A stretch of DNA of 38,281 nucleotides from Flavobacteriales bacterium (GTDB taxonomy: Bacteria > Bacteroidota > Bacteroidia > CAIKAF01). The DNA lies in assembly GCA_022402535.1 (NCBI GenBank), contig JAKRSD010000025.1:83530-121810 (forward strand), given 5' to 3'. Positions 24,672 through 36,307 of the stretch are shown here, piece after piece. The translations under genes and the position numbers were made by a program. Numbering within the stretch: the first letter of the stretch is position 1; each line of letters starts with the position of its first letter. Under the pieces are notes generated by a model. That model ran no database searches. It saw only the letters and a program-made list of their open reading frames with translations, and was not told the DNA's origin.

Positions 24672-25862
24672 TTAAAATGATGATTTGACAATTTCTAACA
24701 AAGTATTTACCCTTATAGTAAACTCATTTTTAAAATCACCGTGAATTACTTCTTTTAAAACATTAAGATCTTCCCAATTCCTATATTTATCAAAGTATTG
24801 AAAAGCAGGACAATTATTTGATTCTTCTCTCTTTCCTCCAAAACTATTTTCGTAGTTTTTAATTAATTCTTCATAGTTATATTTATTAATGTCCTCTTTA
24901 GTTATATAACTAAAACCTAAAAGTAAATTATTTGCACCTCTTCTTACATTAAAACTAAAGGTAATCTGTAAATTATGTTTTTTCATTTCTTCATTTTGCA
25001 AATTGAAACCTAACCATTCATAACTTTTGTTTGCAAGCTTATCTTTATCTAAAGTTGATGACATGTCATGTTTTTTCATTAATTCAACTACAGTTGGATA
25101 TAAATGTTCATGAATTGCAACTTTAAAGATATCGTTTGTCAAGTTCACTAAATTAATCAGGCTTTCAAAATTTTGTTTTTTACCCTCTCCTACAATTAAA
25201 CTTAATATTTCTTGGTTCATTTTTTTATTTATGTTTTGATAAGTTAATTTTTTGATTAAATTTTTGTATTGTCTTATTGTTTCACGTACAATCGGATTTT
25301 CTACAGCAATTTTTTGACATTCTTCTAACCACAATATTATTAGTTCAGAATATGAAACATTGATATATTTATCTTTATCAAAATTTTGTTCGCTATCACT
25401 GCCATATAAAGTTAAGTACAGTAGTTTTCCTTTTTTATTATGATTATGGTATCTCAATAGTTGATTTGGTTGTTCATTTGCATATATTTTGTTTTCAATC
25501 ATTATTTGAGAATGCTTATCATCAGTAAGTAAAATATCAATTCTTCCACCTTTTTCATCTGTTACATTCCCAATAAAAAATTCGGTTTCTACTTTATATT
25601 TTGAGCTACAAAAAAAATCACTTTCGATATTTAATAATTCTAAAAATTTAATCATGAATAAATTGTCATACCCATGTTTGCCATTTTGATTCAATAATTC
25701 AGCAATAAACCTTGAATGAGTACTTTCTTCATAATGTTCTATTCCTAATATTGAAAAAATATTGAAATTTTCACCTGTTGCTTTTTCTACTCGCTTGTAA
25801 CTGTTTGTAATAACTGAAGTTTGAGAAAGTAAATTATCTGCATTTTGAATATTTCTAAGCAT
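24672..25862 (-). CDS. PD-(D/E)XK nuclease superfamily protein (PDDEXK_4-like)
   Basis: A 396-aa probable endonuclease. The core motifs lie in the first 140 residues: HYEESTHSRFIAELLN (43-58, with the helix-one glutamates), GGRIDILL (105-112, D109), IENKI (122-126; E123 and K125 as the E-x-K pair) and QLLRYHN (134-140). The rest is helical, with the segment SYEWLGFNLQN and no second catalytic domain. Such proteins are common single-gene defence or restriction-associated nucleases. The gene is markedly more A+T-rich than the hsd genes beside it, suggesting separate acquisition. It has its own 157-bp upstream region, so it is likely a separate unit at the downstream end of the island. Confidence 0.85.
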   Translation of the reverse strand: MLRNIQNADNLLSQTSVITNSYKRVEKATGENFNIFSILGIEHYEESTHSRFIAELLNQNGKHGYDNLFMIKFLELLNIESDFFCSSKYKVETEFFIGNVTDEKGGRIDILLTDDKHSQIMIENKIYANEQPNQLLRYHNHNKKGKLLYLTLYGSDSEQNFDKDKYINVSYSELIILWLEECQKIAVENPIVRETIRQYKNLIKKLTYQNINKKMNQEILSLIVGEGKKQNFESLINLVNLTNDIFKVAIHEHLYPTVVELMKKHDMSSTLDKDKLANKSYEWLGFNLQNEEMKKHNLQITFSFNVRRGANNLLLGFSYITKEDINKYNYEELIKNYENSFGGKREESNNCPAFQYFDKYRNWEDLNVLKEVIHGDFKNEFTIRVNTLLEIVKSSF

Positions 25863-26019: not shown

Positions 26020-26841
26020 TTAAAAAAGTTTTCCTTGAATCTCTTTCTTGGGATGAAATGTCCCGATGATCATAAACGGATTGTGAGAAACATAATGATG
26101 AAGTTGTGATGTCCCTAAAAATAAGTGTAAGTCCTTTGTTTTGGCGAAGTCCTCAAAATACTTATTCTTAACATCCTGAACAGCTTTACGTTCATTTCCT
26201 TTATGCCTTGCATAGCAATTCCAATACAGTTGTCCGATTTCCCAATCTTCAATCATCAGTTTGCTTTTCTTACCTTGGTTGTCTTCAAAAACATAAGAGA
26301 ATTTGTAAGGGAGTTTTTTTACTACTTCCAAAGGGTCTTCAGGTTGTTTAAACAGGTTAAACTGTTGTCGTTCAGCTTCTAGTTTAGCGATTTTGTTTTT
26401 GTCCCATTCCCGTTCTACCTCTTCAATAGTAAAATCAAGAATTTTAGCTGGTTTGAATACAGCAAGCGAAGTACAAATTTCTTTATTATGTGCTTCCGAG
26501 ATCAATTCTGTAAGGTTGTAGTAAATTTTGCCAAGCACAAACTTCTTTCTTTCAGCCCAATTGTTTTCTGTGCCAATGTGGTCAAGTATTTTTATTTCAC
26601 TGTCGTGGGAATATGGACGATAACTTTCAGTTCGAAAATCACTGTCGTTTTTCACTAGATCCAATTCTATCCAATCATATTTTTTGTATTGTTGGTCATA
26701 AGACTTCTTGCGAAACTGAATAGGATAAATTCTTATCCAAGTACCATTCTCTAAAAAACCTGCCGTACAAACCAACTCTTCATATTTACTTGAAATGGTA
26801 GGGTAGGTTTTAACCGTGATTAATACTTTCGTTAACGCCAT
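26020..26841 (-). CDS. Unrecognised 273-aa protein coupled to the DUF488 gene
   Basis: I do not recognise a named family. The protein begins ALTKVLITVKTYPTISSKYEELVCTAG with no signal or membrane segment, so it is cytoplasmic. Notable segments are WIRIYPIQFRKKSYDQQYKKYDWIELDL (32-59), rich in aromatic and basic residues, a charged central helix (about 139-165), and a C-terminal LHLFLGTSQLHHYVSHNPFMIIGTF (239-263) with three histidines. The N-terminal half looks beta-rich, as in small nucleic-acid-binding folds; this is impression only. It starts three bases after the stop of the Panacea-DUF488 gene with no room for a promoter, so the two almost certainly act together. Confidence 0.75.
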   Translation of the reverse strand: MALTKVLITVKTYPTISSKYEELVCTAGFLENGTWIRIYPIQFRKKSYDQQYKKYDWIELDLVKNDSDFRTESYRPYSHDSEIKILDHIGTENNWAERKKFVLGKIYYNLTELISEAHNKEICTSLAVFKPAKILDFTIEEVEREWDKNKIAKLEAERQQFNLFKQPEDPLEVVKKLPYKFSYVFEDNQGKKSKLMIEDWEIGQLYWNCYARHKGNERKAVQDVKNKYFEDFAKTKDLHLFLGTSQLHHYVSHNPFMIIGTFHPKKEIQGKLF

Positions 26842-26844
26842 AGA

Positions 26845-27729
26845 TTATATGTGTTTTACTTCATAATAAAAGTTGGGCAAGTTCTCGATGGCTTCGGCTA
26901 AATGCTTGCGGTGGCACTGGCAAATGTTGGCTTCAAAACAGGTTAAAGCAATACGTTTGTGTTGCTTCAGCAGATTTAGTATTTCGTTTTGGTATGCCGT
27001 GGTTTGGGGCAGATTGTTTTTGCGGTAAACGGCAAACAATTTATCGTAATCGCTTTGTGTGTTGAGTTCCTGACGTTGGTCGCCCTGTATGCCTACTTCG
27101 GGAATATGCACATAGTCAATACCCACGCTGGCACAGTATTTTTTCAGCTGGCTTTTGCTAAAGCCGTATTTCATGCTAATCGGATTGTTACGGACATCTA
27201 CCAAAAGCTTTACATCGTTCTTGAGCAGACGAACCAAATATTCTTCCAGCGAAATACCTTCGTAACCGATGGTAAACAGCACGGTTTTGTTGCTTTTGGG
27301 TTTGGCTTTGGTTACTTTTTCTAATTCTTCTGGGTTCAGAATATTTTCTGCTGCTTCACTTTTAATGGCATAGAAAGGAAAGTTGATGTACGTGTGCTTC
27401 ATCAAAGCCGTTGCACTCTTTTTTCCGTAAAGCAATTTTACTTCCTGCAACAGTTGCAGGTCGGCGGGTTTCAGTTGTTTTAAGTAGTCAGTGGGGTCTT
27501 TTTGGGCAAATGTTTTTTCATCTTCGGTTAAAATGCCCCTGGTTACCATTGCGGTCATATCGGCATTGGCAGAGTAGGAGTAGCAGCCATATTTGTAAGG
27601 AATAAAATCATACACCGCTTTGGTCTGCTTATTGGTAAACAGGAACAACAGTTTTTGCAGGCGGATTTTATCTAATTGCCCGTCAAACAGTTGCAATAAA
27701 GCCAGTATTACTTTTCGTCTATAAAACAT
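26845..27729 (-). CDS. Panacea-like domain fused to DUF488
   Basis: A 294-aa two-domain cytoplasmic protein. Residues 5-115 resemble the Panacea (SocA/DUF4065) helical domain: ILALLQLFDGQLDKIRLQKL (8-27), then YDFIPYKYGCYSYSANADM (40-58) and a G-I-L turn (65-67). Panacea domains are known as antitoxin or chaperone-like modules. Residues 150-282 are DUF488: TIGYEGISLEEYLVRLL (153-169), VDVRNNPIS (177-185), KYCASVGIDYVHIPEVG (197-213) and the conserved cysteine/histidine cluster ALTCFEANICQCHRKHLAEA (261-280). DUF488 has no settled biochemical role. A TTG-N18-TAAATTTG promoter ends five bases before the ATG. The Panacea call is by pattern, less sure than DUF488. Confidence 0.85.
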   Translation of the reverse strand: MFYRRKVILALLQLFDGQLDKIRLQKLLFLFTNKQTKAVYDFIPYKYGCYSYSANADMTAMVTRGILTEDEKTFAQKDPTDYLKQLKPADLQLLQEVKLLYGKKSATALMKHTYINFPFYAIKSEAAENILNPEELEKVTKAKPKSNKTVLFTIGYEGISLEEYLVRLLKNDVKLLVDVRNNPISMKYGFSKSQLKKYCASVGIDYVHIPEVGIQGDQRQELNTQSDYDKLFAVYRKNNLPQTTAYQNEILNLLKQHKRIALTCFEANICQCHRKHLAEAIENLPNFYYEVKHI

Positions 27730-27733
27730 TTTA

Positions 27734-27762
27734 CAAATTTACTATTTATGAAGCCAATTCAA
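27734..27762 (-). promoter_or_regulatory. Near-consensus promoter of the Panacea-DUF488 unit
   Basis: On the minus strand: TTG (27762-27760), an 18-base spacer, TAAATTTG (27741-27734), an exact TAnnTTTG. Only four bases separate it from the ATG at 27729, so the predicted start of transcription falls at or next to the start codon. Confidence 0.55.
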
Positions 27763-28179: not shown

Positions 28180-31100
28180 TTATGCAACAAATGCTCTTTG
28201 GTCTCCACTATTTGCCATAATGTAAAAATGGTCAAACACGGCATCGCATTTGGTAGCGTAAATCGCACGGTCGTAAGAAACAGGCAGTTCTTTGTCTAAT
28301 AGTTCTTTGATTACTGCTTGAACCTGTAGTTTCGTTTGAGTGTCTTTGTGCCAGTCGTTGATTAATACTTTTGGTTTTTCGTCTTTCAGTCGTTTGAGTA
28401 AGTTTTTAGCAGCAAGTTTTACTTTCTGTTCTTCGTCTTTTGTCAGTTTTTCTTTTTTCAGTAAGTCAAACAGTTCCAATTCTTCTTCGGTCAGACCTTC
28501 TCTGGTTGCTCGCAATTCTTCTTCTTTCATCTTCTCCACAAAAGCCATCAGGTCGTCAAAGTAATTCTCGTTGGTGGAGTTGCCTGAATTGTAGCGGTCA
28601 ATGATTTCTTGCAATTTCTCTGCAAAGCTTCTACGGGTTACGTTTCTGTCCATCATCATTTGCAACTTGTCTTGAATGAAAGCCCGCAAGTCAGAAATTT
28701 CTATGTTTTTGTAAGGAGCTTGTTTGTATTCTTCTTTCAGTTTGTCAACGTCTAATTTGCTCAGGTCAATTTGTTTCCACGCTTTAATGAAGTATTCCCG
28801 TTTTTCGGCTGCTAAGTGTATATCTTTGGTGTCTTCTTTGACTTCCTTTTCTTCCTGTGCAATGATGCTTTCGTCAAGCAATTGGCTTATTCTGCGTTTG
28901 GCACTGTCTAAGTTGCCACGGTCTGCTTTGCCGTCAATTACCTGACGCAAATAGTGAATAATTGCAGCCAATGGAAATTGACTTCTTCGTCCTACAATTT
29001 CAGGTTTGCAAGCTTCGTAAAGTGCATCAATGGTATTGTCGTAAACAATGAATTGTTTTTTCTGCTCATCGTTTGCCAAAATGATGTCGGCATATTCTTC
29101 AAACAAACTTAGTTTGCTGAATGTCTCTTTGGATTGTTTGATTTGGTGTAAATCAACTTTTATGTTTTTGCAATACTCATCACATTCTGCTATGGCATCT
29201 TTCAGTAAAACAAAAAGTTGTTCAATGTCTCTTGCAGGTGAATTTTCGTCTTGGTCTTCTCCTGTGCCAATGCTTCCGCCACCGTATGAGGCAAACGCTT
29301 TTTTCAGATTGCGGAACACATTGTAATAATCCACCACCAAACCGTTCTTTTTGGGCTTTCCGAAAATCTGCACATCGGTTACACGGTTTGCCCTTGCAAT
29401 AGTTTGCATCAGGGTGTGGTCTTTCATCGGCTTGTCTAAATACAAGGTAGAAACCGTTGGAGCATCAAAACCCGTGAGCCACATACTGCACACAAAAACC
29501 AGCTGCAAGGGGTCTTTCGGATTTTTGAATTTGTCTTCCATTTCCTGACCGTTCTCGTCCACCTGCTTCATCCGCTTCCGGTGCGGTCGAATGTCCAAAT
29601 CTTCTTTTTCAAACTTTTCTTCTTCGCCTACCTCTTCACTCACTATAACTGCCATATCTGCTTTCCGCATCCATTCCAAAATGCGTTTAAGTTCGGCTTT
29701 TTCTTCCTGGTCTTGGCTGGCGTTTATTTGCTTTTGCAGTTCCCGCTTTTCTTCTTCCCACAGGCGTTTTACTTTGTCATACATTTTTACGGCTGTGAAC
29801 TTATCAATGGTGATTACCATTCCTTTGCCCAAATAGCCCCTTCGTGGAAAATGATATACAATGTCTTTGGCGATGATTTCCAAACGGCTGTCCCGTTTCA
29901 GCACACTCATTTCCTGAGCAAACTCTCTTTCCAGTTTGTCTTGATTTTCGGCTGACAAGTTTTCGTCTGAAACGATTTCTGCCAAATCATCATCAATATC
30001 ATCGTTTTGCAAAAGCACCTGTGGCACTCGCTTGTGATAGAAAAGCGGAACGGTAGCTTCGTCTTCAATGCTTTGCTTGAAGTTGTATTCTGAAACGGTA
30101 TCGCCAAACCAGTTTTTGGTGAGTTCACGGCTGCCCAACAGTGGTGTGCCTGTAAATGCGATGTATTGGGCATTGGGTAAACCTGTCCGCATATTCTCCG
30201 CCAAATCTTTGTATTGGGTTCGGTGTGCTTCATCCACAATTACAATAATGTCGTTGCGGTCGGAAAGCAGCGGATATTGTATGCCTTTGTCGTAGCGGAA
30301 TTTTTGAATGAGGGTAAAAATGTAACGCGTGTTGGTTTGCAGCATATTCCGCAAATCTTCGCTGTTGCTAGGTTGGCATTTGGTGTCTTTGCTGAAAGCC
30401 CCTGCACCCAAAAAGTTGCGGTAAATCTGCCCGTCTAAATCTTCACGGTCGGTAACAATTAAAAAGGTGTAATTGCCTGTAAACTGACGAAAGATTTTTC
30501 GGGTAAAGAAAATCATACTGAAACTTTTACCACTTCCTTGTGTGTGCCAGAATACACCCAGTTTGCCTTTGTTCTCTTTGTCGGTTCCTGCTGCATCGTG
30601 TTGCAAACGCAAGGAGAAATTTTCAATGGCATTGTTTACTCCCAAAAACTGGTGGTTTTTAGCAGCAATCTTTACTGTATCGTTGTAGTAGAAAATGAAA
30701 TTCTCTATGTAATCCAGCAGGCGTTTCTTTTCGCACAAGCCCAACACGGCATAATCCAAACTCACCCCGTAATCTTTAATCCGTTTTTTGTCGGGAACTT
30801 GTTTTTCGTTTTTGTAACGTAGCCAATTAAAGTAAAACTCATAACCTGCATTGAATGCTCCGATTTTAGTTTCAATGCCGTTGCTAAGCATACACAGGGC
30901 ATTGTAGCGAAACAGCAAAGGAATTTGTTTTTTGTATCGGGTCAGGTTGTCGTCATAGGCATTGCGGACAGGCACATTGCTGTTTTTCAGTTCAATGAAC
31001 AACAAAGGCAAACCGTTGATAAACACAATCAAATCGGGGCGTAAACGCAAATCGCCTTTTATCCAAAGTTGTGAAGTAACCAGATAATCGTTTTTGCTTT

Positions 31101-31455
31101 CGTCTTTAAAGTCAATCACTTTTACCCGTTCGGGTTCGGTGCGACCTGTAGCCGTGGTGATGTTTACTTCCACACCATCTTTGAGCAATGCATAAATTTC
31201 ACGGTTGGCGTGGGTATCGCTTTTGTCAAATCGGGTATTGCAAAGGTCTTTAAAGGCTTCTTCAATTATTTCTTCGTTCAGATGCGGGTTGAGTTCTTTC
31301 AGTTTGCGTTTGAGCAATGGTTTTATCACCACATCGGTTTCGCTTTCACGCTCCGTTGTGTCCACATCAAAGCAGTCTAGATGTCTGTAACCCAAGTTGT
31401 TTACAAATACACTTAGAATTGCTTTTTCTATTTGGTCTTCGGTGATAATTGCCAT
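28180..31455 (-). CDS. hsdR: Type I restriction enzyme, R (motor/nuclease) subunit
   Basis: A 1091-aa restriction subunit that translocates DNA with ATP and cuts unmodified DNA. The N-terminal nuclease has PD140-141, E155 and K157 in RPDLIVFINGLPLLFIELKN. The helicase motor has Walker A TQGSGKS (305-311), the DEAH box (408-411) and motif III region FTGTPLLG (434-441); motif VI-type residues QTIARANRV lie further on. The helical C-terminal region (from about 750) would bind the M2S core. All key residues are present, so the protein appears intact. It is the last gene of hsdM-hsdS-ATPase-hsdR, starting 14 bases after the ATPase gene. Confidence 0.96.
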   Translation of the reverse strand: MAIITEDQIEKAILSVFVNNLGYRHLDCFDVDTTERESETDVVIKPLLKRKLKELNPHLNEEIIEEAFKDLCNTRFDKSDTHANREIYALLKDGVEVNITTATGRTEPERVKVIDFKDESKNDYLVTSQLWIKGDLRLRPDLIVFINGLPLLFIELKNSNVPVRNAYDDNLTRYKKQIPLLFRYNALCMLSNGIETKIGAFNAGYEFYFNWLRYKNEKQVPDKKRIKDYGVSLDYAVLGLCEKKRLLDYIENFIFYYNDTVKIAAKNHQFLGVNNAIENFSLRLQHDAAGTDKENKGKLGVFWHTQGSGKSFSMIFFTRKIFRQFTGNYTFLIVTDREDLDGQIYRNFLGAGAFSKDTKCQPSNSEDLRNMLQTNTRYIFTLIQKFRYDKGIQYPLLSDRNDIIVIVDEAHRTQYKDLAENMRTGLPNAQYIAFTGTPLLGSRELTKNWFGDTVSEYNFKQSIEDEATVPLFYHKRVPQVLLQNDDIDDDLAEIVSDENLSAENQDKLEREFAQEMSVLKRDSRLEIIAKDIVYHFPRRGYLGKGMVITIDKFTAVKMYDKVKRLWEEEKRELQKQINASQDQEEKAELKRILEWMRKADMAVIVSEEVGEEEKFEKEDLDIRPHRKRMKQVDENGQEMEDKFKNPKDPLQLVFVCSMWLTGFDAPTVSTLYLDKPMKDHTLMQTIARANRVTDVQIFGKPKKNGLVVDYYNVFRNLKKAFASYGGGSIGTGEDQDENSPARDIEQLFVLLKDAIAECDEYCKNIKVDLHQIKQSKETFSKLSLFEEYADIILANDEQKKQFIVYDNTIDALYEACKPEIVGRRSQFPLAAIIHYLRQVIDGKADRGNLDSAKRRISQLLDESIIAQEEKEVKEDTKDIHLAAEKREYFIKAWKQIDLSKLDVDKLKEEYKQAPYKNIEISDLRAFIQDKLQMMMDRNVTRRSFAEKLQEIIDRYNSGNSTNENYFDDLMAFVEKMKEEELRATREGLTEEELELFDLLKKEKLTKDEEQKVKLAAKNLLKRLKDEKPKVLINDWHKDTQTKLQVQAVIKELLDKELPVSYDRAIYATKCDAVFDHFYIMANSGDQRAFVA

Positions 31456-31469
31456 TTTTTATATGATTA

Positions 31470-33224
31470 CTATAAATTACTGAATGCTGAAATTTCATTG
31501 ACCAATGTTCTTGCATCATCAAAGACTTCAGCATCAATCATAACGTGTGCAATTTGATGCTTATTTATATTGAAGTGTCTTTCGATAGCGTTAAGTAAAA
31601 TCTTCCCTTCTATATCGAAAAGCAGTCTGGTTATGTCTATCCTATCGGACTGTATAAAGTTGCCGTTTATTATGATTCCAAAATTGTCTTGAATAAATTG
31701 TCTGATGGCATTTTCATCAACATTCGCTGCTCTGGCAATTGAGCTTGGATGAATTAGATAATTTTCAATTTCCCATCTTCTCCATTTACGGTAACGAAGG
31801 AAGCCATCACCATTTATCCAATCTGGGAATCCGTTTTGTTGTAAGGTGGTTGTAGTTTCTTCGTAAAGAAGATTATCACGATCCTCAATACTTATTCCCT
31901 TTAAATCTGGTATTGCTTCCCTTAATTGAATGAATAATTGTTTACGTTGGTCGTGTTTGAAAGTGTTTGGCCACACAACAATATTATTTGGTAATGGAAC
32001 ACCAGTAGCTCTAAACCATTCTTTAATAATTCCCCAGTCCGATTCGTTTTCTGTGAATATTACTTTACGATGGACTTGTAATTTGTTTAAAATTGGAGAA
32101 TACTCTGAACCTAGACCGGAAATCAATGCTACTTTTTGACCTTCGTTTACTAAATAAGTTGTTTGATTTCGCTGAATTTTAAGAATTAGTTTGGGGTCAG
32201 AACGCTTTATAATTTCAGATGAGTGAGTCGCCATTAGGACTTGCTTGTTATTTTCACTTGACAAATCTGCAAGCTTCTGAAATAAAACACTTTCTAAACT
32301 AGTGTGGAGATGAGCATCCGGTTCATCTAAGAGAAGAACATCGATATTTCTATCTAATGCATAGGTATAAACACTTAACCACTGCAAAAAACCACTACCC
32401 TCGACCATTATGTCCCTTTTATTAAAGTTAGGGAATGGGACATACCGATTGGTAACAATTTCACCCTTCGATAATTCAACCCTTACATAATTGTGAAAAT
32501 TTGAATTGAAGTTTAATGGATGTAATTGTATTTTAAATATTTCGAATAAGACTTGATTCAATTTTTCATAAGGATCTGTTTCTCTGAGCGTCCTTAATGC
32601 AGTCTTTGAAATCCTTTGATTATCCCCCTTCAATTGAACTCGTCTCCTTTCATTTTGCTGGAACATATCAATGATTGTGTTTCTCAAAATCGAACCTCCT
32701 AACCCTCGACCTAATAATTTTCTTCTGTCTGCGACCGAATACCAAGGTTCTCTATCTGTAATACCTGCAAAAGGGGGTAAATAAGCAATAACAGGTATTT
32801 TATCTTCGATGGCCAAATTCGAAGAAGTGTTTTTCATATAAAGACGTTCAGAAACTAATGAAAATGAAATTTCCAGAAATCTATCGGGCTTACCTGGCAA
32901 GTCCCAAAAGCATTTTATTTTTAATTGATAGCCATTTAGACCAGTTAGGTTTGTCCATAAATATTTAAGAGATGGAATATTAATAGGGGTGAAATCATCA
33001 AAAGAAATACCGATGCCATCACCATTGTAATTGGAATTTAAAGCTGTTCTTCCCTTTTCTAATTCAATAAACAACTTCGCAAACTCCCATACTGCTAAAC
33101 CGTGAAGCAAACTAGATTTACCTGAATTATTACCTCCTGCAACAATGGTAATTCCAGATGCCTTCAATGGTTTGTCGAAGGATGCGAACTGCTTAAAATT
33201 TTCAAAAACAACTCTTTTAATCAT
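31470..33224 (-). CDS. AAA ATPase fused to TOPRIM-like domain (OLD/PARIS-like), inside the hsd operon
   Basis: A 584-aa ABC-type ATPase with a C-terminal TOPRIM-like region. Walker A is GGNNSGKSS (30-38), an ABC-signature-like VEGSGFLQW is at 274-282, Walker B DVLLLDEPDAHLH at 295-307, and the H-loop ATHSSE at 332-337. From about 385 a TOPRIM-like pattern appears: VIFTENESDWGII (388-400, candidate Glu), SIEDRD (445-450, the D-x-D pair) and RWEIENYLI (483-491), as in OLD nucleases and DUF4435 proteins such as AriB of PARIS. It lies 6 bases after hsdS and 14 before hsdR on the same strand, so it is part of the operon. ATPases inserted in type I loci are known (RloA/RloC); a separate anti-phage role or guarding of restriction is inference. 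It is more A+T-rich than its neighbours. Confidence 0.85.
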   Translation of the reverse strand: MIKRVVFENFKQFASFDKPLKASGITIVAGGNNSGKSSLLHGLAVWEFAKLFIELEKGRTALNSNYNGDGIGISFDDFTPINIPSLKYLWTNLTGLNGYQLKIKCFWDLPGKPDRFLEISFSLVSERLYMKNTSSNLAIEDKIPVIAYLPPFAGITDREPWYSVADRRKLLGRGLGGSILRNTIIDMFQQNERRRVQLKGDNQRISKTALRTLRETDPYEKLNQVLFEIFKIQLHPLNFNSNFHNYVRVELSKGEIVTNRYVPFPNFNKRDIMVEGSGFLQWLSVYTYALDRNIDVLLLDEPDAHLHTSLESVLFQKLADLSSENNKQVLMATHSSEIIKRSDPKLILKIQRNQTTYLVNEGQKVALISGLGSEYSPILNKLQVHRKVIFTENESDWGIIKEWFRATGVPLPNNIVVWPNTFKHDQRKQLFIQLREAIPDLKGISIEDRDNLLYEETTTTLQQNGFPDWINGDGFLRYRKWRRWEIENYLIHPSSIARAANVDENAIRQFIQDNFGIIINGNFIQSDRIDITRLLFDIEGKILLNAIERHFNINKHQIAHVMIDAEVFDDARTLVNEISAFSNL

Positions 33225-33230
33225 ATTCCA

Positions 33231-34469
33231 CTAGTGACTTTTAATTTCTAATTTCCCACTTATCAAGCGTGGTAAAAGTCGGTCTCTGATTTCTCTCAGT
33301 TTTGAATTTTGAGTTCCGAGAATTGCTATTTGTTTTTGCATTAGCATTACCTTATCGTGAAATGCTTGCATCAAATCATCATCAGGCAAAATGATTTCCT
33401 GAAATTTCAGGAAGGGTTCAAACTGATAATTGCTGATACCTGTTGATTGAATTTGAAATGTTTCAATCATTCCCGTGTCATACAAATAATTGAGAAAATA
33501 ATAGAGATAAAGAGAAGGAATGCTTGTTGTTCTTATTTGCTTGCAGAAACTTGCAGCCATTACTTTATCACCATAAGCATCTAAAATTTCTTTTGTGATA
33601 TAACAAGTTCTACCAAGTGGTTGTCCTTCACTGCCGCCTGCTGTTTCAAACACAATATCGCCTACAATCAACTGGCGAGATTTCATATTTGATGCTTTGT
33701 GAAAGCGATAAACTTCAGGATTGGTTTGTCCTGCTCTGATTTTCGGAATATCGGTTCCACGAATTACATAACCCGCTACTGAAAATTGATTGTCTGCCTT
33801 TTCATTACCCCAACCACCGCCAATGTGATAGTCAATTACTTTTCCAATTGGTTTTATTTTCCAGTCAATAGGAATTCCCTTCTTAAACTTCGCCTGTTTA
33901 TAGCCGGGGAAACGCATTCTTACAAACCATTCTTTGTAAAGCTCACGGGCGGTTTGCTCCAAAAGTTTGATGCGTTGGTTATTTACTTCTATCAAGTCAT
34001 CATAAGCCGAAAGGATGGACGCTATGCGTTGTTGGGTGGGGAGTTCAGGCACATTCCATAAGGTCTTTGCAAGAACACTCCATTTAGCTCTTGGCATCTT
34101 AGTGCCATTTGATGAAACGTCTGCGAAATCAATTAGAGGTTGAGAGGCGAGAATATAAAACAAGAACTTTTGGTCATATCCTTTATTAGCATTAATAACT
34201 GCCAAATCAGTAGAGCAAATTCCATCAAATTGTGGAATGATAACTTTTCTAAAATAAGGTCTTAATGTTCCGAAAATAATCTCACCCTTTTTGAATAATT
34301 TTTTATCGCTTTGAATGTCTTTGGAGCTACCAAAATCAATAAGGCGTAATGTTCCTTGTTCTATGTGTTCATATCCAATGTAGGGCATATCAGTCTCATT
34401 GTTGGGTTTAAATGAACGCCTAACATCTTTGCCGATTTTCCCTAACTCAGTTTCTTTCCAACTTTTCAT
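33231..34469 (-). CDS. hsdS: Type I restriction-modification specificity subunit
   Basis: A 412-aa DNA-recognition subunit with two target-recognition domains. The first covers about 1-145 (LGKIGKDVRRSFKPNNE to VPELPTQQRIASILSAYDDL, the first conserved helix near 142-185). The second covers about 200-360 (WKIKPIGKVIDYHIGGGWG, RGTDIPKI), followed by a second conserved helix at about 365-405 (LREIRDRLLPRLISGKL). Two different domains imply a bipartite asymmetric target; the sequence recognised cannot be read off. Its ATG overlaps the hsdM stop (ATGA). Confidence 0.95.
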   Translation of the reverse strand: MKSWKETELGKIGKDVRRSFKPNNETDMPYIGYEHIEQGTLRLIDFGSSKDIQSDKKLFKKGEIIFGTLRPYFRKVIIPQFDGICSTDLAVINANKGYDQKFLFYILASQPLIDFADVSSNGTKMPRAKWSVLAKTLWNVPELPTQQRIASILSAYDDLIEVNNQRIKLLEQTARELYKEWFVRMRFPGYKQAKFKKGIPIDWKIKPIGKVIDYHIGGGWGNEKADNQFSVAGYVIRGTDIPKIRAGQTNPEVYRFHKASNMKSRQLIVGDIVFETAGGSEGQPLGRTCYITKEILDAYGDKVMAASFCKQIRTTSIPSLYLYYFLNYLYDTGMIETFQIQSTGISNYQFEPFLKFQEIILPDDDLMQAFHDKVMLMQKQIAILGTQNSKLREIRDRLLPRLISGKLEIKSH

Positions 34470-36307
34470 CCTATCGCCAATAAATTCAGGTTAATCAATT
34501 CTTCCAACTCCTTTGCCTTGCTGTTTAATCCATTCAAGGCAGCGTGTCTTTCTTTCATTTCCGCTAAAAACTCTTCTTCGGTCAGTCCGTCTTCTTCTAT
34601 CACCACACCTACATATCTGCCGGGGTTTAGGCTGTAGTCTTGCTCTTCAATTTCTTTCAGGGTAGCGGCTTTGCACAAGCCCGTTACGTCTTCATACACG
34701 CCATTGGGGAAGCGTTCGTTCAGCCAGTTTATGTGTCCTAAGTAGTAGTTTTGCTTTTCAGTTAAAGCTTTCCATTGCTTTTCGGCTTCTTCCATTTGCT
34801 TTTCCCATCGCTTTAGTTCTTTATCTTCGGTGGGTTTTGCTTTTTGTATTTTCTCTACTTCCTGCTGTTGTGCTTTGGCTTGCTTTTCAAAATCGTTAGC
34901 TTGCTGTTGGTATTTCGCCAATAGCTGTTTCAGACGTTTGGTTTCGCCACGGTAAAGCCGCACAATGGTGGCAATGTTTTGAATATGTTCATCGGTAAAT
35001 TCACGCAATGCCCTGGTTACTTGTCTGAAAATATTTCGGGCATCTATAAAGAGAATTTTGGCCTCACCTCCCGTCCTCTCCTCGGGAGAGGACGCTTTGT
35101 TTTTGTCAAAAAACCACAAGGTAGCGGGTAGCGTAACGGTGTAAAACATATTCTTGGGCAGGGTGAGCATACAGTCAATTACCCCGCTCTTAATCAAAGT
35201 TTGGCGTATGTCGGCTTCGCTGTTTCGGGCATCGCTGGCATTGTTTGCCATTACCAAAGCGGCTCTGCCTGTGTCTTTCAGTGAAGTGGCAAACAGGTTT
35301 ATCCATAAGTAATTGGCATTGGGCACGCTGTTTACGGCTGTTTGTTTTTTGGCGTTGGGTTTGGTTTTATTTTTCGGTATGCCGTATTCGTTAAAACGCT
35401 TGTCGTCTTTTACACGGTCGTAGTTCACATCGTCCACGTTAAATGGCGGATTAGCCATTACATAGTCAAACTTGCCGTAGCTGTCAAACGGATTTTCGTA
35501 ATAGGCATTGGCTTGCACCACCTGCCCACGCAGTCCGTTTACGGCTAAGTTCATTCGTGCCAGCTTTACGGTTTCACTGTCTTTCTCGCTGCCATACACC
35601 ATCAGGTCTTTGGTATCGTCATCGTGCAGTTCTGCTCTGCGTTTGTCCACAAACTCGCTGCTTTGCACAAACATACCGCCACTGCCGCAGGCTGGGTCGT
35701 AAATGGTGCCTTTATAGGGTTCAATCACTTCCACCATCAGCTTTACCACGCTGGTAGGCGTGTAGAAAGCACCACCGCCTTGTCCTTCGGCAAGGGCAAA
35801 CTCACCCAAAAAGTATTCATACACTTTACCGAACAAATCGCCTGTGGCATCTTCGGGAATGTCTTTAAAAGTTTTCAGTAAGCTCTTGGGCAGGCTTCGG
35901 TCGTCTTTGGTGTAGAGTTTAAAGTATTCGTCTTTGGGTAAACTGTCTTTCAGTTCGGGCTTGTAATACTCAATCAGTTCCATAGCCTTTTTAATGGCTT
36001 TGGCAATGTCGTCTTTCTCAGGAAGGTTAAGCAAATAGTCATACTCCGCTTCGGGTGGCAAATAAAAACCGCATTTCAGAATGGCAATTTCTTCTTCTTT
36101 CAGTTGGTTGCGGCTTTTCTTCTGTGCTTCCAGTTCGGCTTTAATTTCCGCTTTCACCTTGTTGTAGCGGATAGAAGCAAAGCGAAGAAAAATCAGTCCG
36201 AGAATAGGCGTTGAATATTCACTGGCTTTCAGTCCGCTGTCTGCACGGAGCTTGTCTGCTGCTTTCCACAAATTATCTTCAAGTTCTTTTAGTTGTTCTC
36301 CAGTCAT
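34466..36307 (-). CDS. hsdM: Type I restriction-modification DNA methyltransferase subunit
   Basis: A 613-aa N6-adenine methyltransferase. The helical HsdM N-domain covers about 5-150. The S-adenosylmethionine motif is DPACGSGGM (204-212) and the catalytic motif is NPPF (286-289). A charged coiled-coil-like region, rich in Gln, Lys and Glu, lies near 448-520 before a C-terminal helix that contacts HsdS. Residues 405-416 (ASSPEERTGGEA) look foreign: they are encoded by a GC-rich palindrome and sit between DKNK and ILFIDARNIF, where the family is normally continuous. The reading frame stays open, so the enzyme is probably still active. First gene of the operon. Confidence 0.96.
   Translation of the reverse strand: MTGEQLKELEDNLWKAADKLRADSGLKASEYSTPILGLIFLRFASIRYNKVKAEIKAELEAQKKSRNQLKEEEIAILKCGFYLPPEAEYDYLLNLPEKDDIAKAIKKAMELIEYYKPELKDSLPKDEYFKLYTKDDRSLPKSLLKTFKDIPEDATGDLFGKVYEYFLGEFALAEGQGGGAFYTPTSVVKLMVEVIEPYKGTIYDPACGSGGMFVQSSEFVDKRRAELHDDDTKDLMVYGSEKDSETVKLARMNLAVNGLRGQVVQANAYYENPFDSYGKFDYVMANPPFNVDDVNYDRVKDDKRFNEYGIPKNKTKPNAKKQTAVNSVPNANYLWINLFATSLKDTGRAALVMANNASDARNSEADIRQTLIKSGVIDCMLTLPKNMFYTVTLPATLWFFDKNKASSPEERTGGEAKILFIDARNIFRQVTRALREFTDEHIQNIATIVRLYRGETKRLKQLLAKYQQQANDFEKQAKAQQQEVEKIQKAKPTEDKELKRWEKQMEEAEKQWKALTEKQNYYLGHINWLNERFPNGVYEDVTGLCKAATLKEIEEQDYSLNPGRYVGVVIEEDGLTEEEFLAEMKERHAALNGLNSKAKELEELINLNLLAIG
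35061..35093. repeat. GC-rich palindromic element inserted in frame in hsdM
   Basis: A perfect 9-bp inverted repeat, GTCCTCTCC (35073-35081) and GGAGAGGAC (35085-35093), with a 3-base loop, next to CCTCACCTCC (35063-35072). It is GC-rich in an A+T-rich gene and encodes the Ser/Glu/Gly-rich insert in HsdM. Confidence 0.75.

Follow-up and report, generated by a model that had tools for sequence, protein, structure and literature searches.

What does a protein that joins a Panacea-like domain to DUF488 (protein A) do together with the partner encoded directly behind it (protein B), and do the two form a module of defence? The genes lie in a stretch of 38,281 nucleotides from a Flavobacteriales bacterium, to which we refer as the window. 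Both open reading frames of the preliminary description were recovered on the minus strand at the predicted lengths, with A first and B starting three bases after its end (Table 1). The type I restriction-modification (R-M) system and the PD-(D/E)XK nuclease that had been named as neighbours were also present on the same strand, the R-M genes upstream of the pair and the nuclease gene directly downstream, where it stands outside the conserved pair. Upstream of A, a search for operator palindromes returned no inverted repeats, and promoter-like matches occurred at chance level, with no clear promoter.

Table 1 Features of the locus in the window
Feature	Position	Strand	Basis
Gene A, Panacea/DarG-type domain + DUF488, PADLOC PDC-M19A	26845-27729	minus	ATG, 294 aa ORF
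Gene B, tandem OB-fold protein, PADLOC PDC-M19B	26020-26841	minus	ATG, 273 aa ORF; fold predicted
A residues 1-140, helical/winged domain, Panacea / DarG-C-terminal antitoxin group	27310-27729	minus	fold and family matches
A residues 147-294, DUF488, PTP/rhodanese-like fold	26848-27291	minus	VIA fold matches, conserved residues
B OB fold 1 (residues 1-94)	26560-26841	minus	VIA vs human SSB; conservation
B OB fold 2 (residues ~126-262)	26056-26466	minus	boundary from predicted secondary structure
PD-(D/E)XK protein, PADLOC candidate PDC-S26	24672-25862	minus	Pfam PDDEXK_4 1e-32; PDC-S26 3e-95
Type I R-M locus, whole	28180-36307	minus	profile matches
HsdR	28180-31455	minus	type I R-M locus
AAA ATPase between hsdS and hsdR	31470-33224	minus	type I R-M locus
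HsdS	33231-34469	minus	type I R-M locus
HsdM	34466-36307	minus	type I R-M locus

The partner had been called unrecognised, which turned out to be incorrect, as the pair is already listed by PADLOC. A matched the profile PDC-M19A (E 2.5e-130, residues 1-294) and B the profile PDC-M19B (E 4.1e-129, residues 1-273), and the two hits fall in neighbouring genes. Both proteins were thus matched over their full length in the identical two-gene arrangement and, judged by sequence, the window locus is a member of an already known kind. PDC-M19 is a catalogue entry only, a defence candidate without a mechanism. A literature search on the A-B pair retrieved no paper, the literature searched described no activity or mechanism for PDC-M19, and in PHROGs both A and B match families of unknown function. 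What we add are both folds, the DarG-like architecture, a wider core of DUF488 and tandem OB folds, swapped N-terminal domains and a one-sided decay. We predict that the pair is probably a defence or toxin-antitoxin module.

As a side observation, the ATPase encoded within the R-M locus (584 aa) is AAA_15/OLD-like and in PADLOC weakly matched AriA, NsnB and AbiLi, which suggests, at the level of sequence, an extra defence gene embedded in the type I R-M locus.

Predicted folds of the two proteins

Structure prediction was confident for both single proteins. In A (AlphaFold model; pLDDT 97.4, pTM 0.93), Pfam detected DUF488 (PF04343; E 4.5e-24, residues 161-280, 85.8 bits against a cut-off of 22.2) and nothing beyond it. 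The C...C-H-R residues are kept, and the earlier assignment to DUF488 was thus upheld. The model DUF488-N3a (PF22751) scored 22.0 bits (E 2e-4), below its cut-off of 27, and all 49 aligned relatives showed some match to it at E up to 0.1. Invariant in these 49 relatives were G155, Y156, D178, R180, Y206, G213, C264, C272, H273 and R274; three of the four residues singled out earlier are among them, while the fourth, C270, is not conserved. Residues 147-294 aligned in VIA with CobF (Z 10.4), laforin phosphatase (Z 8.9) and SsoPTP (Z 8.4), so that the domain resembles PTP/dual-specificity phosphatases and also CobF/diphthine-synthase-type folds. According to the model, the DUF488 domain of A folds like PTP/rhodanese enzymes.

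The N-terminal domain proved to be Panacea-like, as had been proposed. Residues 1-138 matched the C-terminal domain of DarG (7yk3 chain B) in Foldseek at 2.5e-4, and VIA aligned the two at Z 12.3 over 135 residues and 3.3 Å, that is, as the same fold. In an alignment of 44 sequences (43 relatives and the window), 23 N-domains matched SocA_Panacea (PF13274; best E 1.8e-5) and 35 matched the antitoxin DarG model (best E 3.5e-5). Taken together, family matches and predicted fold place the N-domain in the Panacea/DarG antitoxin-domain group. Part of the N-domain family hence shares its domain with the Panacea (SocA-like) antitoxins, but the window's own copy has no Pfam PF13274 match, falling below the model, and is fused to DUF488. 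In the passages on Panacea that we covered, the B family does not figure as a Panacea-linked toxin.

DarG combines a de-modifying enzyme with a toxin-blocking domain (PMC11481870), the latter with the fold of the A N-terminus, and is in this respect built like A. In DarG, however, the enzyme is a macrodomain instead of DUF488, the order of the domains is reversed, and the partner is the ADP-ribosyltransferase DarT instead of a tandem OB protein. Profile searches gave no match to DarT or a macrodomain, and the pair is therefore not a DarTG system. Furthermore, the DarG C-terminal domain is an acidic mimic of single-stranded DNA, whereas relatives of the A N-domain are basic, with a mean net charge of +6, which does not support such mimicry by A. 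Being basic, the N-domain would dock differently from DarG or serve as a sensor; the authors of PMC10440598 put forward a sensor role for some Panacea proteins.

For B, no Pfam family covers the protein, and a sequence-only search of the PDB returned nothing below E 0.7. The model (pLDDT 94.3, pTM 0.91) contains two OB folds and was matched by Foldseek to Teb1 (1.1e-5), an RPA filament (2.0e-5), CST (1.2e-4) and HIN-200 (2.4e-4). VIA aligned residues 1-94 with human SSB (Z 8.5) and residues 1-266 with a HIN-200 protein (Z 7.8), the range that the RPA alignment covers as well; baculovirus LEF-3 was also matched, and further tandem-OB or end-binding likenesses were POT1, TEBP and RecO. As the VIA Z values are middling, the assignment rests on the agreement of several independent tandem-OB matches, by which B is predicted with high confidence to consist of two tandem OB folds. 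From this fold, B is predicted to bind single-stranded DNA, and the earlier suggestion that the partner might be a target binder fits the model well. Despite the fold shared over residues 1-266, identity to RPA70, Teb1, POT1, HIN-200 and LEF-3 is about 12% or less, and B has its own invariant set in comparison with known tandem-OB binders (C25, R37, P40, D68, R70, E72 and D199-W-E). Across 84 B relatives, P14, E22, C25, R37, P40, D68 and R70, all within OB fold 1, were invariant together with W200 and G243; OB fold 2 holds the latter residue and a D199-W200-E201 motif.

Tandem OB folds encoded beside DUF488 are also the trait of operons with DuOB (PF22557, Pfam 'Dual OB-containing domain'), in which DUF488 genes adjoin DuOB in all four matches whose flanks show them. 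DuOB loci carry two DUF488 genes; in L229, L230 and L231, the DuOB gene is followed by two tandem DUF488 genes in a related but distinct operon. We rejected the possibility that B is a plain DuOB member: the Pfam model did not match window B, matched only one of the 84 B relatives (E 0.011) and found nothing in the window's genome, and a profile comparison was short and weak (probability 30%).

The main rival of a toxin-antitoxin-like reading starts from these folds. The two proteins may form a cooperative effector. B would then recognise nucleic acid (single-stranded DNA, ends or junctions), DUF488 would process or modify the ends of invading nucleic acid, and the N-domains (Panacea/DarG-type, XRE or ParB-HTH) would be sensors or DNA anchors. 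The likeness of B to the end- and single-strand-binding proteins POT1, TEBP, RPA and RecO, the invariant catalytic residues of DUF488 and the DuOB-DUF488 operons all agree with this scenario. So does a prediction that Burroughs and Aravind reportedly made in 2023, namely DNA-end-processing roles in conflicts for the RapZ-C/DUF488/DUF4326 clade. It fits poorly with the Panacea/DarG-type domain, which is antitoxin-associated, and we regard it as a doubtful explanation overall.

Pairing, partner architectures and distribution

Relatives of B were collected from plasmids, phages, viral contigs and genomes, the genome scan yielding at least 507 confirmed stretches. Among the matches listed, a DUF488 ORF was adjacent in 170 of 174 B ORFs; three of the other four lie at contig edges, and the fourth is on plasmid pSOG2. 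On the sister plasmid pSOG1, a ParB-HTH-DUF488 gene directly precedes a B identical to that of pSOG2, which lacks the fusion gene. The pairing, for which co-occurrence had been named as the check, is near-obligate and stable across unrelated genomes. The listed matches comprise 53 tandem layouts with DUF488 first, 112 convergent layouts with overlapping 3' ends (mostly by 44-47 bases) and five layouts with B first.

The N-terminal part of the DUF488 partner varies. Among the matches listed, the Panacea/DarG part is confined to one clade, and most proteobacterial partners have no extra domain. An XRE-HTH part occurs in Streptomyces and a ParB-HTH part on Sulfolobales plasmids. Unlike the PDC-M19 entry, the DUF488 partners that we collected from proteobacteria, actinobacteria, cyanobacteria and archaea are devoid of the Panacea/DarG-type domain. 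As the N-domain can be swapped for XRE-HTH or ParB-CTPase-HTH, or be absent, DUF488 and the OB protein appear to be the working core. In addition, the distances of DUF488 and B correlated strongly among the matches listed (Mantel r 0.86, 142 pairs; permutation maximum 0.15). In both trees, the Panacea/DarG clade formed a single group, save one exception (22/23). DUF488 and B hence co-evolve, which joint transfer of the two genes explains just as well as direct contact does.

Across the sampled loci, there was no third gene that repeatedly accompanies the pair; the larger clusters of third genes seem to be spurious ORFs of GC-rich loci, R-M genes or phage genes. On the Sulfolobales plasmids, the ParB-fold and HTH fusion to DUF488 stands directly before B (L253:1258-3186 and L015:2933-4858), and a possible nuclease-like gene, apparently of another family than PDC-S26, follows B (L253:3174-3680). 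In alpha-, beta- and gammaproteobacteria, most copies show the convergent 44-47 base antisense overlap (L062-L140, e.g. L062:3560-4823). We considered the 44-base overlap as a functional element and dismissed this, as nucleotide conservation is lower inside the overlap than just before it. The DUF488 stop falls within the conserved YPPK codons of B, so that shared ancestry suffices for a constant overlap.

The pair occurs in bacteria, archaea and viruses. Within the phylum of the window, B was present in 21 of 395 genomes, and in one of 16 of the same family; 52 viral contigs carry B, and the pair is also found on conjugative plasmids. Its distribution is patchy, and the pair is mobile. In Gordonia phages, B is gp43 and lies between the immunity repressor gp44 and a convergent DUF488 gene, gp42, with an integrase near. 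On five viral contigs of 47-49 kb (L141, L144, L145, L147 and L148), the pair is located at most about 5 kb from the end, a position typical for cargo genes or possibly reflecting flanking host DNA.

We compared 116 neighbours of pair loci in the window's phylum with 120 control genes from displaced regions of the same genomes. Por secretion tails occurred among the control genes, which makes Bacteroidota the probable phylum. Within the 25 commonest families listed, R-M families recurred beside the pair (N6_Mtase 4, Methylase_S 4, Eco57I 3, HSDR_N 3), and a single R-M locus was visible in the control. As tRNA synthetases and other ordinary genes were also frequent beside the pair, this enrichment in defence and R-M genes is modest. 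The defence-island setting of the preliminary description is therefore borne out in part: the pair is patchy, mobile, in some cases next to R-M genes and not mainly in housekeeping surroundings, but many of the sampled neighbours are ordinary.

The phage and plasmid copies invite a reading outside of defence, in which the pair serves replication, lysogeny control or partition of these elements, with the DUF488 protein as a regulator acting through interchangeable DNA-binding domains and B as an auxiliary single-strand-binding protein. The XRE-HTH and ParB-HTH parts, the CTP binding of an archaeal ParB-fold fusion with DUF488-HTH (PMC12704722) and the Gordonia copy beside repressor and integrase would suit such a role. 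It does not account well for the invariant enzyme residues of DUF488, the patchy occurrence on chromosomes, the R-M neighbours or the many copies without an added DNA-binding domain, and we consider it unlikely.

One-sided decay and the proposed division of labour

Two samples, one of the phylum and one of the class, were searched with A, and the downstream DNA was read. This gave 41 genomes with intact A. B was likewise intact in 29 of them, and in the other 12 it was damaged or absent. Stop codons interrupt B in G137 and, through a single shared event, in G011/G016; B is frameshifted in G392 and G519 and truncated in G162, G215 and G278, the last also near a contig end. Next to an intact A, B was absent from G300, G360, G405 and G702. 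Conversely, no intact B beside a broken A was present among the genomes examined; in G442 both genes are broken. Draft assemblies may hold false stops, which are expected to affect A equally. B is thus costly or dispensable, and A is tolerated or useful alone. In G702, a small unrelated ORF (115 aa, L259:1306-1653) takes the place of B directly after the intact A.

This pattern fits a toxin that is lost while its antitoxin is kept, although it does not prove this. Intact A without intact B in about 30% of the sampled genomes would be odd if the enzyme needed B for targeting, which speaks against a cooperative effector. The genomes with A and no B could also be explained if A worked on its own, as a regulator or an enzyme, and B were an often-lost helper, dispensable instead of toxic. 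However, among the matches listed, B without a DUF488 neighbour occurs only at contig edges and on pSOG2, and the strong pairwise co-evolution likewise renders this explanation very improbable.

The toxin-antitoxin-like reading gains support from the antitoxin-type domain together with the one-sided decay of B, and we tentatively favour it. According to this model, A and B would constitute one mobile two-gene module acting in conflicts with phages, plasmids or other mobile DNA. B may be the effector, costly and potentially toxic, and would engage single-stranded DNA or some other nucleic acid. A, with its DarG-like build, would be the controller of B: its Panacea/DarG-type domain may dock on the partner or sense the trigger, and its cysteine-dependent, PTP/rhodanese-like DUF488 domain may undo or limit the effect of B, for instance through phosphate or sugar-phosphate groups in nucleic acids or nucleotides. 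Computation backs the folds of both proteins, their near-obligate pairing and co-evolution, the swapping of domains, the mobility and the one-sided loss of B. Counting against the model are the proteobacterial copies, most of which have no antitoxin-type domain, the basic charge of the N-domain (+6), the many ordinary flanking genes with modest defence enrichment, and pSOG2 with its B lacking an adjacent DUF488; intact A without B could mean that A has a job of its own. To our knowledge, OB folds alone are rarely toxic.

A wider version of the model would see here a toxin-antitoxin-like immune family that is widespread in bacteria, archaea and phages. Its effector, an RPA/HIN-200-like tandem OB protein, would sense nucleic acid, and a catalytic DUF488 antitoxin with exchangeable sensors (Panacea/DarG, XRE or ParB-CTPase) would contribute a chemistry new to immunity. 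In this full extent we think it rather unlikely to hold.

In sum, a catalogued candidate pair gains predicted folds and a proposed division of labour, with an antitoxin-type domain and a cysteine enzyme on one side and a tandem OB binder on the other. Across bacteria, archaea and phages, its core is DUF488 and the OB protein, to which the Panacea/DarG part was gained in one clade. If the proposed roles are correct, they would tie DUF488 to immunity and add another DarG-like antitoxin design, in which an enzyme is combined with a docking domain.
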